A stretch of 64,000 bases of DNA from Carnobacterium viridans (GTDB taxonomy: Bacteria > Bacillota > Bacilli > Lactobacillales > Carnobacteriaceae). The position numbers were made by a program, and so were the translations under genes. This document shows positions 20,592 through 51,162 of this stretch, in pieces. Every line of letters starts with the position of its first letter. The first letter of the stretch is position 1. The stretch lies in assembly GCF_900102725.1 (NCBI RefSeq), contig NZ_FNJW01000008.1:1762501-1826500 (forward strand). The letters run 5' to 3'. The notes beneath the pieces were generated by a model, which was not told the origin of the DNA, ran no database searches, and worked only from the letters and a program-made list of their open reading frames with translations.

Positions 20592-20690
20592 AATGCCGCA
20601 AGGCCGTATGGCAATGATGAACTTTCGAATCGTGTCAGATCCGGAAGGAAGCAGCACTAAGGATGTTTCATCATGTGCCGTATGTACATA
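20592..20690 (+). ncRNA. ffs: signal recognition particle RNA (small bacterial type)
   Basis: The conserved domain IV hairpin GTGTCAGATCCGGAAGGAAGCAGCAC is present in the form GTGTCAG...GGAAGGAAGCAGCAC, with the GGAA tetraloop and the Ffh-binding internal loops. The flanking arms TATGGCA-TGATGAA and TTCATCA-TGCCGTA pair to extend the rod. The size of about 100 nt matches the short SRP RNA of lactic acid bacteria and not the 270-nt Bacillus form. A TATAAT -10 box lies at 20582-20587. It precedes dnaX, the usual neighbour. Confidence 0.92.
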
Positions 20691-39276: not shown

Positions 39277-41919
39277 TTAAAACGTTTTATTCATTTTACG
39301 CATAATGAATTTTTGTAGTTCAACTACTATAAGAATAGTAAGTGATAGTCCAATAGCGATCAACCAATGCATCATACTGATAGCAACTAAGTTAAAAATA
39401 CCAGCTAAGAATGGTACAGTAGCCACTAGAGTAATCAATGCAATTGAGAGCATTGCTAACCAGAACAAGTTCATGTTGGATGTGATCCCAACTTTGAAAA
39501 TAGATTCTTTGCTACGTGCATTGAAAATATGCAGTACAGAAGACCAACCAAGAATTAAAAATGCCATTGTTTGACCAACTTCATGACTTGCGGTAATCGA
39601 AGAATCAATATCAATAAATGAGCCAACATAGAAACCAATAAGAGTCGTAATGGTGAACGTTAGAGCTGCAATCGCAATATTTCGATAGCCGCCTTTAGCG
39701 AAGATGCTTTCACCTTTAGCTGTTGGTTCATTAGTCATAATAGTTGGATCAGCTTTTTCTCTGCTTAATGCAAAACCAGGAATTCCATCCGCTACTACAT
39801 TAACAAATAGTAGTTGGATAGCAATGACTGGTAAGCCCCAGCCCATAATAACAGCAATTAACATAATGAGAATTTCTGAAATGTTACATGATAATAGGAA
39901 ATAAACGGTTTTTTTGATGTTTTCATAAACACGTCTACCTTCTTCAACAGCATGAACAATGGTATCAAATTTGTCATCGGTCAAGATCATGTCCGAAGCA
40001 CTTTTAGCAACCTCAGTACCGGTAATTCCCATAGCAGTACCAACATCAGCTGCTTTTAAGGCGGGTGCATCATTGACACCGTCTCCGGTCATGGCTACAA
40101 CTTCTCCATGTGATTGCCAAGCTTTAACGATTCGAATCTTGTCTTCAGGAGACACACGTGCATAAACGGAATAATCACGAATGGTTTCTTTTAATTTTTC
40201 ATCTGAAAGTTTACCTAATTCAGCACCTGTGATGGCTTTATCGCCTTCTTCAAAAATACCGATTTGATTAGCAATAGCAGAAGCTGTAGCAGCATGGTCA
40301 CCAGTAATCATAATGGTTTTAATACCAGCGGACTTGGCTTCTTTAACGGCTTGGATACTTTCTTCTCTTGGAGGATCAATCATTCCAACGATCCCAGCAA
40401 ATGTAATCCCATCTTCAAGTTCTTCGGGACTTAAATCTTCTGGAAGTGTGTCGTATGTTTTATATCCAACAGCAATAACACGTAAAGCATCATTAGCAAA
40501 TGAGTCATGGATATCTCGTGCATTTTGACCTACTTCATCTGTAATAGACGAAAATTCAACGGGTAAACGATCAAAAGCTCCCTTAGTAATGGAAATGTAA
40601 TGCCCATCTATCTCATGAACAGTCGTCATCAACTTACGACTAGAATCAAAAGGGATTTCGTGTACACGTGGATAAGACGCATCTAAATCATCTTTTTGCA
40701 GTCCTTTTTTCTGTAGCAAGCGGATAATCGCTGTTTCAGTAGGATCTCCACTAATAACTTCCTCGCCATCACGATCTTCAATAGCCGCATTTGAGGCTAG
40801 GCTCATCATCTTAAGAACCCATTTTTCATCATCGCCAAACTCATTTTTTACATTTATTGGTTTATGAGGAAAAGCCCAAAGCTTTTGAATGGTCATTTGA
40901 TTTTGAGTTAATGTTCCTGTTTTATCTGAAGCAATAACAGAAGCACTACCTAAAGTTTCAACGGAAGGGATGGTCCGGATGATCGCATTACGATCTACCA
41001 TGTTTTTCACACCATTAGCTAATGAAATAGTGACGATAACAGGTAAGGTTTCAGGAACGGCTGCAACAGCAAGTGATACAGCTGTCATTAGGCTAAGGAT
41101 AAAAGCTTCTCCTTGAAGGAAGCTTAAAGTGAAAATAATGATCCCAGCAATTAAAGCTATAACACTTACTTGTTTTCCTAAACCATCCATTCTAGATTGT
41201 AAAGGTGTTTTTCCTTGTTTGGTACTGTTCAATAAGTTTGCAACAGAACCCATTTCTGTTTCCATACCAGTTGTTACAACGATAGCTTTTGCTCGTCCAT
41301 TGGTAACTAAGGTTCCAGAAAAAACCGTATTAAATACGTCACCAACAGGGCTGTCTTCTTCAATTTCGGCGTTTTCGTCTTTTTCAACGGGCACACTTTC
41401 GCCAGTTAAAGCAGACTCTTCGACTTGTAAATCACCACTAGAAATTAAGCGAGCATCTGCAGGTATTTGATCACCTGCTTCTAATAGTATAATGTCTCCT
41501 GGTACTAACTCGATAGCGTCAACAACGTCTTCTTGACCATCTCGTATAACGCGCGCTTGTGGAGCAGATAAACTCTGCAGCGAAGCCAAAGCTTTTTCCG
41601 CTTTTCCTTCCTGTCTTAGAGCAATAACAACGTTGATGACAATAATAGAGAAGATGACAATAGGTTCTGAGAAATCGTCGGGGTGTTCAGTGATGGCAAT
41701 ATACGTGGAGATAATTCCGGCAAGGATCAAGATAATAACGGTGACATCTTTTAGTTGATCAAGAATCTTTGAAAATAAAGAAACACTTTCCTCTTCATCA
41801 AATTGGTTGGCACCAAATTGTTTTTTGTGTTCTTCTACTTCCTTCGGGGATAACCCTGTTTCTGCGTTACTGTTGAACTGTGATATAATGGAATCTAATT
41901 TTTTTGTTCTAAAATCCAT
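39277..41919 (-). CDS. P-type cation-transporting ATPase, calcium-type
   Basis: This is a P2-type ATPase pump. The phosphorylation motif DKTGTLT has its aspartate at residue 332. TGES (actuator loop) lies near 172, MTGDGVND in the hinge, and about ten membrane helices are visible. Helix 4 carries VPETLP, where calcium pumps usually have IPEGLP. The total of 880 aa and the missing C-terminal regulatory tail match bacterial PMCA/SERCA-like pumps. Calcium export is likely, not proven. ATG with AGGAGG upstream; a longer frame upstream lacks support. Confidence 0.88.
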   Translation of the reverse strand: MDFRTKKLDSIISQFNSNAETGLSPKEVEEHKKQFGANQFDEEESVSLFSKILDQLKDVTVIILILAGIISTYIAITEHPDDFSEPIVIFSIIVINVVIALRQEGKAEKALASLQSLSAPQARVIRDGQEDVVDAIELVPGDIILLEAGDQIPADARLISSGDLQVEESALTGESVPVEKDENAEIEEDSPVGDVFNTVFSGTLVTNGRAKAIVVTTGMETEMGSVANLLNSTKQGKTPLQSRMDGLGKQVSVIALIAGIIIFTLSFLQGEAFILSLMTAVSLAVAAVPETLPVIVTISLANGVKNMVDRNAIIRTIPSVETLGSASVIASDKTGTLTQNQMTIQKLWAFPHKPINVKNEFGDDEKWVLKMMSLASNAAIEDRDGEEVISGDPTETAIIRLLQKKGLQKDDLDASYPRVHEIPFDSSRKLMTTVHEIDGHYISITKGAFDRLPVEFSSITDEVGQNARDIHDSFANDALRVIAVGYKTYDTLPEDLSPEELEDGITFAGIVGMIDPPREESIQAVKEAKSAGIKTIMITGDHAATASAIANQIGIFEEGDKAITGAELGKLSDEKLKETIRDYSVYARVSPEDKIRIVKAWQSHGEVVAMTGDGVNDAPALKAADVGTAMGITGTEVAKSASDMILTDDKFDTIVHAVEEGRRVYENIKKTVYFLLSCNISEILIMLIAVIMGWGLPVIAIQLLFVNVVADGIPGFALSREKADPTIMTNEPTAKGESIFAKGGYRNIAIAALTFTITTLIGFYVGSFIDIDSSITASHEVGQTMAFLILGWSSVLHIFNARSKESIFKVGITSNMNLFWLAMLSIALITLVATVPFLAGIFNLVAISMMHWLIAIGLSLTILIVVELQKFIMRKMNKTF

Positions 41920-42090
41920 AACATTCCTCCTAATAAGTATTTTTAACAAAATGGATGTAACAAGTAAGTTAGACAAGCAACCACTTGTTTGTTTATATAA
42001 GTATACCAATTTTTTTTTGTTTTTGTCAAGTTAGGAGCTTGAAAAAAAGTAAGTAATATTAAAAAATTAGTAGGGCAATATTAATTTAGG

Positions 42091-42175
42091 CAAAAAAAAA
42101 CCCACCCATATAAAAAGGGTGGTAGAGGAGTCATTGCCATTTACTTTGGAGGAGAAAAGGCAATATAAAAAAGTT
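42091..42175 (-). ncRNA. candidate small RNA 1 with C-rich (anti-SD) loop and own terminator
   Basis: Read on the minus strand, ATTGCC/GGCAAT closes a 20-base loop containing TCTCCTCC, complementary to Shine-Dalgarno sequences. A pyrimidine-rich linker GACTCCTCTA follows. A terminator CCACCC/GGGTGG with nine T ends the element. Size is about 80-90 nt. The plan repeats in the neighbouring candidate. The 5' end and promoter are not clear. No reading frame is present. Confidence 0.6.
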
Positions 42176-42264
42176 GGTTGTTATTGGTATAAGTAAACTA
42201 TAACGATAAGTTATGAAGAAAATGTGATGAAAGTTTTATATATCTCTTAAGGTAATGGTAAAAA

Positions 42265-42366
42265 TAAAAAAGCTACCTCAATTAAGAGATAGCTAGGGGA
42301 TAAGACTCTTTTCAATAGGGGGAGAAAAGAGAGTGAAAATAAATTCAGTTTATTTTAACAACACCT
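42265..42366 (-). ncRNA. candidate small RNA 2, paralogue of small RNA 1
   Basis: On the minus strand ACTCTCTTTT/AAAAGAGT (with a two-base bulge) closes a loop containing CTCCCCC. The linker is CTTATCCCCT. A nine-pair terminator AGCTATCTC/GAGGTAGCT with TTTTTTATTTTT follows. The segment TTTTCTCC(T/C)CC is shared with small RNA 1 at 10 of 11 bases. A promoter TTATCA-17-TATGAT lies upstream, predicting about 100 nt. It could instead serve only as the terminator of the PfpI gene. Confidence 0.6.
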
Positions 42367-42373
42367 ATAATTT

Positions 42374-42402
42374 ATCATAACCAACTAAATATCCTATGAT
42401 AA
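42374..42402 (-). promoter_or_regulatory. candidate promoter of small RNA 2
   Basis: On the minus strand TTATCA (4 of 6), 17 bp, TATGAT (5 of 6). The predicted start is near 42366. It lies downstream of the PfpI gene in the same direction. Confidence 0.4.
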
Positions 42403-42451
42403 ACAAGTAAAAAATTTAATGGAATTAAATTAAAAATTAATTATTTAATCC

Positions 42452-42970
42452 TTAATCCGCTAAAGCATTCACGATTGCTTTATTAAAAGCGGGAAGATCT
42501 TCTGGTGTACGGCTGGAGATAATGCCGCTTTCGTCTTCTACAACTTCGCTGTCCTCAAATAATGCACCTGCATTTTTTAAGTCGACGCCCACTTGTTTAA
42601 CAGCCGTCATTTTTTTGCCTTTAACAACTTCAGCGTTAATAAGAAGTTGTGGACCGTGGCAAATTGAAAAAATAGGTTTTTTAGCATCAGCGAATGCCTT
42701 GGTAAACGCTAAAAATCGATCATCTGATCTTAATTGATCTGGTGAAAAACCACCGGGAATCAATAGTGCATCGAACTCTTCCGGTGAAACATCATCAATA
42801 CCTTTATCAATGGTAATGGTGGTTTCTCCTTTTTTACCGGTAACAGTATTTCCTTCTTTTTTCTCGATAGTGATCACTTGATGACCGGCATTTGTTAAAG
42901 CCTCTTTTGGAGAAGTGAATTCGACATCTTCAAATAAATTGGTCACAACTGTTGCAATTTTCTTTCCCAT
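42452..42970 (-). CDS. DJ-1/PfpI family protein (general stress protein 18 type)
   Basis: This is a class I glutamine-amidotransferase-like fold. The nucleophile elbow has SICHGPQLL with the cysteine near residue 106, and LLIPGGFSPDQLR lies before it. Members of this subfamily (YfkM, YraA) are stress-induced proteins linked to carbonyl damage; protease activity is not established. The length of 172 aa is typical. The neighbour mgsA, divergent, makes the reactive carbonyl methylglyoxal, which fits a protective role as an inference. Confidence 0.88.
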   Translation of the reverse strand: MGKKIATVVTNLFEDVEFTSPKEALTNAGHQVITIEKKEGNTVTGKKGETTITIDKGIDDVSPEEFDALLIPGGFSPDQLRSDDRFLAFTKAFADAKKPIFSICHGPQLLINAEVVKGKKMTAVKQVGVDLKNAGALFEDSEVVEDESGIISSRTPEDLPAFNKAIVNALAD

Positions 42971-50253: not shown

Positions 50254-50540
50254 GAAAAAAGCATTCGCCCATTAACCTACTGCTGTAGATTAAAGGACGA
50301 ACGCTTTACCGCCGTGTTACCACCTTTATTTGAGTTGTTCTCACAAACAACCCCTTATCAAGTACGAGAAGAAAACTTCTGATACTTTAGCACTGTAATG
50401 GGTGCACCCATGATAGCCTAATGTTTAAAACACTTGGTATCCCACTCAGAGGCCATTTTCTTTTTACTTCTGCAAACCTGTTCTCAGCATTCAGGCTCTC
50501 TGTTTTTGCATTCTGTAAAAATACTTTTCTCTTCATTGCG
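50254..50540 (-). promoter_or_regulatory. T-box riboswitch 2 (Met), proximal to metN
   Basis: On the minus strand the T-box motif AGGTGGTAACACGGCG (50310-50325) is followed by the terminator stem AAAGCGTTCGTCCTTTAA / TTAATGGGCGAATGCTTT and T-run. Stem I contains the specifier ATG (50454-50456) in GAAAATGGCC, followed by the GAGTGG turn. Uncharged tRNA-Met would stabilise the antiterminator and allow metN transcription. Confidence 0.9.
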
Positions 50541-50562
50541 TTTAGTTATGTAATTTTAAAAA

Positions 50563-50940: not shown

Positions 50941-51061
50941 TAACTAAATTTAATTTTAAAGAATAGAGTTTAATTAACTGTATTCGCTACTATCCGAAAT
51001 GGATAGAATGTGCTATAGTGAATTTGCCTAAAATACCGGCTAAATAGTTTAGGTAATATAC

Positions 51062-51162
51062 CAGAGTAGGAGACAAAGCGTTAAGTGTCGTAGGGATGGG
51101 ATGTTGCCCACGGACGAAAAATTGTTTAGGCAATTTGCGGTTTTGTTTTTGCATTCGCTGCA
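51062..51162 (+). promoter_or_regulatory. tetrahydrofolate (THF) riboswitch
   Basis: The conserved THF riboswitch segments occur in order: AGAGTAGG, GCGTTAAGTGTCG, GGATGGGATGTTGCC, GGACGAAA, GCGG, and GCATTCGCTGC. It directly precedes folT. Alternative pairing between GCCTAAA upstream (about 51026) and TTTAGGC (about 51125) may couple ligand binding to expression. A TATAGT -10 candidate lies about 45 bases upstream. Confidence 0.85.

Follow-up and report, generated by a model that had tools for sequence, protein, structure and literature searches.

Within the window, the whole 64-kb stretch of Carnobacterium viridans DNA that was analysed, the gap between a DJ-1/PfpI family gene (42452..42970) and a P-type cation ATPase gene (39277..41919) contains two small-RNA-like modules, A and B. 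All four features are on the minus strand; the PfpI gene, assigned like the ATPase gene by Pfam, is upstream of module A, and the ATPase gene is downstream of both modules. The nearest named relative of PfpI is that of C. jeotgali MS3 (94% identical), and no relative was found in the viral contigs searched. The start codon of the ATPase, ATG at 41919-41917, is preceded by GGAGGA (by eye), the start of the longest open reading frame being 42009; the ATPase probably has a start of its own, because a TTGACA-18-TATACT promoter-like site (42000..42029, minus strand, a consensus match only) precedes it. Between this site and the start codon is an inverted repeat, ACAAGTGGTTGCTTGT (41988-41973), which is shared with C. 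jeotgali (L009) and may be an operator. Elsewhere in the window, a T-box leader (50290-50545), a THF riboswitch (51060-51162) and a small SRP RNA (20603-20689) were recognized at curated Rfam cut-offs.

Modules A and B are built on one plan, consisting of a hairpin, a C-rich linker and a terminator with a T-run, as the first-pass annotation of this DNA had described: the motif TTTTCTCCYCC (TTTTCTCC[T/C]CC) occurs exactly twice in the window (42158-42148 and 42328-42318, minus strand), once per module, compared to a mean of 0.09 and never two in the shuffled window, and both folds were recovered. Module A (42265..42362, approximately 98 nt) has the hairpin CUCUUUUC-UCCCCCUAUU-GAAAAGAG with a C-rich loop (42306..42331), predicted by folding and conserved in relatives, and a terminator stem-loop (42271..42294) with a T-run to 42265; its fold (42368-42260) has an energy of -24.4 kcal/mol (z -4.15), a value equalled by none of 200 shuffles. 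Module B (42092..42190, approximately 99 nt) has a hairpin (42132..42165) with CTCCTCC at 42154-42148 and a terminator, CCACCC/GGGTGG (42102..42122), with a T-run to 42092; its fold (42185-42086) has an energy of -19.0 kcal/mol (z -2.20), with 3 of 200 shuffles as good. Both 5' ends are estimates based on the -10 boxes. The placing of the motif in each hairpin loop held insofar as a C-rich loop is exposed in both modules, but in module A the TTTT is mostly within the stem and the exposed loop is UCCCCCUAUU; most B-type copies in relatives have the loop CCUCCAA. The C-rich loop exposed in each predicted fold is complementary to the Shine-Dalgarno sequence.

At curated Rfam cut-offs, no family matches in the gap between the PfpI and ATPase genes. 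At a lax threshold, module B matches Ref84 (RF02846, "Enterococcus sRNA 84") with 45.9 bits (E 9e-5; cut-off 52), aligned over the full model (1-87 of 87) through leader, hairpin, linker and terminator, and the syntenic copy of module B in genus genome G002 scores 62.9 bits, above the cut-off. Matches to Ref84 at E <= 0.01 were found in all 18 family genomes (one to three in each; one genome above the cut-off) and in 56 of 148 order genomes representing 21 of 48 genera (17 genomes above the cut-off). Judged by its sequence, module B belongs to the Ref84 family; because of this match it is not undescribed, and the annotation, which saw no sequence match assigning the modules to csRNAs or LhrC, is incomplete in this respect. 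The modules had also been presented as a pair, which is right for the tandem of A and B but not for the number of copies, which exceeds two: a further Ref84-type copy is found in the same genome (C8:816750-816903; 35.3 bits, below the cut-off), and DNA similar to it is present in 6 of 6 genus genomes. In genus g18, Ref84-type copies form arrays of three or four near-identical members, 195-213 nt apart and each with its own promoter region, seen in three genomes among those examined (L236, L239, L241).

The hairpin of module B was compared among relatives on an alignment without gaps, anchored at the motif, which used 30 of 35 rows (five with other loop lengths were dropped before the count), because the first MAFFT alignment (A1) had left the hairpin unaligned. 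Thirty of 31 unique B copies fold with a hairpin around CTCCTC(C), through 17 distinct perfect stems when stems are fitted per sequence, and the longest stem has a mean of 6.8 versus 3.9 in shuffled flanks. The covariation that the annotation expected in relatives appears in module B as pairing kept through changes of the stem, in 81.3% of cells, a value reached in 0 of 500 shuffles, versus at most 54.0% when the pairing is slid. Other measures are shared with the slid or shuffled controls: cells changed on both sides number 35, compared to 13.9 in shuffles and 34 when slid by -1; the covariation score is 0.285, compared to 0.126 in shuffles and a nearly equal 0.277 when slid by -1; and pairs changed on both sides number five, as in shuffles (4.8). 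The loop core is invariant among rows that had been chosen for a CTCCTCC core. A constant loop on a changing stem is the trace that a presented loop would leave.

Module A matches no Rfam family at its cut-off, and scores 19.7 bits against Ref84 (E 5.6), below the cut-off of 52. The A+B stretch was recovered by DNA search in 5 of 6 genus genomes. A covariance model of module A (R2) matches it in 13 of 18 family genomes (E 6.2e-9 or better) and also in named Desemzia, Pisciglobus and Lacticigenium; named and coded genomes overlap and hence are not separate occurrences, the A stretches of G063, G017, G014 and G003 being identical to those of Lacticigenium, Pisciglobus, Desemzia and C. jeotgali, respectively. 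Among 148 order genomes, R2 matched 16, namely the same 13 plus G063, G020 and G076. The match in G020 (42.8 bits) is a ribosomal L10 leader and was set aside alongside that in G076 (37.1 bits), and those of G011 and G016 were discarded (E 0.7-0.9); given a false match at 42.8 bits, R2 scores below approximately 45 bits are not trusted alone. In Alkalibacterium, module B is present and the A loop motif was not found in the locus examined. The loop UCUCCCC of module A and its stem are nearly invariant across six genera, Lacticigenium included, and because the stem hardly varies, module A yields no covariation test. We regard module A as a conserved unit in its own right. The proposal that the pair may be undescribed fails for module B and stands for module A, which is undescribed within the material searched.

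The relation of the modules to each other and to LhrC of Listeria was assessed with a model (R1) of 31 B-type copies of the family that includes no A or Listeria sequence; R1 holds just seven terminator pairs, a consequence of the unaligned hairpin in A1, and its brief calibration gives bit scores more weight than E-values. Full-length R1 matches module A in the window with 39.5 bits (E 4e-5) and module A of C. jeotgali, Lacticigenium, Pisciglobus and Desemzia with 40.3, 38.0, 33.7 and 31.1 bits, respectively. Of 20 LhrC loci from three named Listeria species (where the Rfam model has 26 matches), R1 matches 18 with 27.0-44.8 bits and the other two with 20.6 and 17.8 bits. Its background is at most 20.3 bits in 360 kb, 21.2 bits in 245 kb and 23.0 bits in the rest of the window, with one unexplained match of 22.8 bits in L012. 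In a search with stricter filters over 299 genomes of the class, a sample whose Listeria membership was not stated, 10 genomes matched at E <= 0.01, all of the same order. When the B profile is cut before the terminator, module B scores 49.0 bits, but the 2.8 bits of module A (E 7.4) are no more than chance would give. The terminator-less model finds 16 of 19 LhrC leaders at E up to 10, with a best score of 14.5 bits and five at 13.0 bits or more, a score that one of 950 shuffles attained as the best of them. R2 matches B copies with 25.8-26.4 bits (L009, L011), less than its false match. The claimed relatedness of the modules thus draws support from the full-length model and loses it without the terminator. 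Module A is probably a paralogue of B, and both are probably distant relatives of LhrC; these links are not proven because the terminator-less scores are weak and R2 scores B below a false match. Likewise, a superfamily comprising Ref84, module A and LhrC is likely but not proven, because the signal of R1 mostly vanishes without the terminator. LhrC, which the annotation had named as a parallel, is a good one, and the matches to 18 of 20 loci suggest that the likeness is perhaps distant homology.

Upstream of module A is a promoter box, TTTACTTGTTTATCAT (42396..42411, minus strand), that fits the 11-nt direct repeat TTCAY-N6-TTCAY at 8 of 10 positions and is approximately 20 nt before a -10-like TAAATT (42374-42369, by eye); the box of module B, ATCACATTTTCTTCAT (42213..42228, minus strand), was located by the repeat scan and has a -10 box TATAGT at 42202-42197 (by eye). 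By eye, the distance from repeat to -10 is approximately 9 nt in B copies and 9 or 20 nt in A copies. Within this window alone the repeat is not significant. Among relatives, whose copies are related and hence not independent counts, it fits at 9-10 of 10 positions in 23 of 30 B copies, where shuffling gives a mean of 1.5 and a maximum of 5, and in six of 14 A copies (mean 0.4, maximum 3); 12 of these 14 A copies reach 8 or more (mean 4.0). A fit at 9-10 positions is also found in six of seven extra copies of families f4, f8 and f9 (shuffled 0.2), at distances that are not all equal, in 4 of 23 f8 copies (shuffled 0.4, most 3), in one of 21 copies from a group composed mainly of f2 (with three of f8) and in 0 of 21 LhrC copies. 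Of 21 LhrC promoters, 14 have a different element, TTCTTAR, at position -62 exactly. This element recurs in f8 copies at -73/-74 (16 of 23), and eight of the 34 Carnobacteriaceae copies have it between -78 and -71; shuffled sequences give a mean below 1 each time. According to the accessible part of PMC4132741, the response regulator LisR is indispensable for LhrC in L. monocytogenes and nucleotides -55 to -75 matter, no LisR consensus being known at the time. By analogy, an OmpR-type response regulator that acts via the TTCAY repeat is a natural guess. A genome scan allowing one mismatch found 16 repeat sites versus 11 for the reversed control, and so no regulon is called. Apart from those at the two sRNA promoters, a single site looks promoter-like and most others are in or beside open frames; at this site (L195, 1501-1516), the repeat, with one mismatch, and a -10-like site precede a membrane-protein gene, a possible further regulon member. 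Between the box and the start of module A there is also an inverted repeat, TTATCATA..TATGATAA (42402-42372), present in L091/L130 as well. In G004, its 15-nt spacer reads as the reverse complement of that in other species (a count by hand against C. jeotgali gave 13 of 15 versus 8 of 15 matching positions), possibly a micro-inversion inside the promoter.

Modules A and B would each be transcribed independently as a trans-acting sRNA of approximately 100 nt, in which the C-rich loop and the single-stranded C-rich linker are predicted to block ribosome binding by pairing at the Shine-Dalgarno region of target mRNAs. The C-rich loops fit the ribosome landing site, and so A and B probably switch off other genes. 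The available portions of PMC5880928 and PMC4132741 report that a CU-rich loop of LhrC4 acts on the Shine-Dalgarno region; by analogy, the loops of A (UCCCCC) and B (CCUCC) should likewise block ribosome binding. An OmpR-type response regulator would probably activate both modules through the 11-nt direct repeat upstream of -10, perhaps in envelope stress, as with LhrC. The targets may be envelope lipoproteins and transporters; those of LhrC, in the part of PMC13350326 available, are LapB, OppA, TcsA, Hbp1 and Hbp2. Candidate targets were picked by sequence pattern and serve as leads only. The candidate for module A is a lipoprotein-like gene that matches no Pfam family; TAGGGGGAGAAA precedes its ATG in three of six genus genomes, where the predicted duplex has -33.4 to -33.7 kcal/mol compared to -30.3 for the best of 144 background sites. 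For module B, a solute-binding/permease fusion with TACTTTGGAGGAG in two of six genus genomes is not better than background, and the same holds for most other candidates when compared to background Shine-Dalgarno sites.

Alternatively, module A might be no more than the end of the PfpI transcript, its 3' untranslated region and terminator, perhaps with an sRNA processed from it. The A loop is indeed 118-128 nt past the PfpI stop codon in 12 of 13 loci that have both (246 nt in Lacticigenium), and a consensus scan located no other terminator between PfpI and A, although the same scan missed the terminator of B. Of 17 loci examined, some of them identical, PfpI is present in 14 and module A in 13 of those 14, but three loci of genus g2 have module A without a PfpI gene in the approximately 1.5 kb upstream. 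Module A is also preceded by a -10-like box and by the direct repeat, which reaches at least 8 of 10 positions in 12 A copies out of 14, against a shuffled mean of 4.0. The three loci disfavour the prospect, raised in the annotation, that the module serves only as the terminator of the upstream gene, and we consider the 3' untranslated region an unlikely account of module A. The same promoter repeat, read as TTCAYA-N5-TTCAYA, could make the modules part of a phosphate-starvation regulon, since Pho boxes also have a period of 11 nt. This was rejected: TTCAY-N6-TTCAY was found upstream of 0 of 30 pst-type loci of the family, and a Pho box in this position is highly improbable. In these loci (L206-L235), TTTACR-N5-TTTACA is upstream in 20 of 30 and is likely the local Pho box.

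The annotation had also set the modules beside the CiaR-dependent csRNAs of streptococci (RF02379), which have C-rich loops and are multicopy, and here too the loops are alike and the copies tandem. The sole csRNA match in the gap, however, is 19.3 bits (cut-off 57) at 41971-42048, outside both modules; the CiaR direct repeat, TTTAAG-N5-TTTAAG, was not found between 42000 and 42450 with up to two mismatches; and no csRNA match at E <= 5 was found in three relatives of genera g13 and g18. The csRNA parallel therefore finds no counterpart at the modules, and membership in that family is hardly credible. The idea that the multicopy tandem matches of g18 are streptococcal csRNAs was unsupported by Rfam scans of L166 and L169. 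If the C-rich loops bound protein rather than mRNA, the modules would act as a sponge, comparable to GGA motifs that take up CsrA; protein sponges are known among multicopy sRNAs whose loop motif is repeated, a possibility discussed for LhrC in the available part of PMC4132741. Against it, the CCUCC loop is the exact complement of the Shine-Dalgarno sequence and pairing with mRNA is reported for LhrC loops (PMC4132741 and PMC5880928, each in part), and we regard a sponge as improbable.

Starting from the family match of B, the recurrence and synteny of A and B, the stem pairing and constant loop of B and the promoter repeat, we consider it quite probable that A and B are independently transcribed, trans-acting sRNAs that block Shine-Dalgarno sequences under OmpR-type control, B being Ref84 and A its probable paralogue; transcription and its 5' ends, mechanism, regulator and targets are the parts that we infer. 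Module B is a new member of the known Ref84 family and module A apparently an undescribed relative of it. An open-access literature search returned nothing naming "Ref84" together with "Enterococcus", and no function for Ref84 was found in the literature searched. Within the accessible text of the literature on LhrC relatives, Carnobacterium sRNAs, the ref series and anti-Shine-Dalgarno sRNAs, no link between Ref84 and LhrC was found: neither "ref84" nor "LhrC" occurs in the available parts of PMC7724050 and PMC10117718, "ref84" does not in that of PMC3166299, and neither "Enterococcus" nor "Ref84" does in that of PMC13350326. LhrC is a well studied Gram-positive sRNA that is treated as a Listeria matter in the available text of that literature. 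If its link to Ref84 and the partnership of module A hold, scattered entries become one multicopy regulator across a large bacterial order, for which a hypothesis that joins stress, a response regulator and Shine-Dalgarno blocking is at hand and can be tested in harmless Carnobacterium.

Among known systems, Ref84 is the closest to module B, sharing its 5' leader UACCAA-AACAACC, hairpin, ACUCCU linker and terminator; the CCUCC loop of B is absent, by eye, from the highest-scoring Ref84 copies (L148-L156), whose promoters are without the TTCAY repeat (1 of 21 in the group that is mostly theirs). In these top-scoring copies the ACUCC linker is kept and the promoter is different (by eye). The UCCC motifs of RsaE and FsrA, which in the available part of PMC4132741 are shown to bind targets, are also similar to the modules, and families of this type have no match in the gap at curated Rfam cut-offs. 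LhrC1-5 (RF00616) share with the modules stem-loop A, a single-stranded CU-rich stretch and a terminator (PMC13350326, in part), as well as the leader AACAAC..AACUUUUUCAUU, multicopy tandem organization and matches to the Carnobacteriaceae model. In contrast to the modules, LhrC has a CU-rich motif in its terminator loop too (PMC5880928, in part) and promoters without the proximal TTCAY repeat, and the LhrC model scores module B at 16.9 bits (cut-off 110), module A not being among its matches. It is possible, though doubtful, that a single ancestral anti-Shine-Dalgarno sRNA gave rise to Ref84, the A family and LhrC, tandem duplication having carried it through Lactobacillales and Listeria under one retained envelope-stress response regulator; the distances from the DNA repeat of this regulator to -10 (approximately 9, 20 and 31-32 nt, by eye) would then differ from one another by whole helical turns, and the loops (CCUCC, UCCCCC and UUUCCC) would have diverged and split the targets among them.
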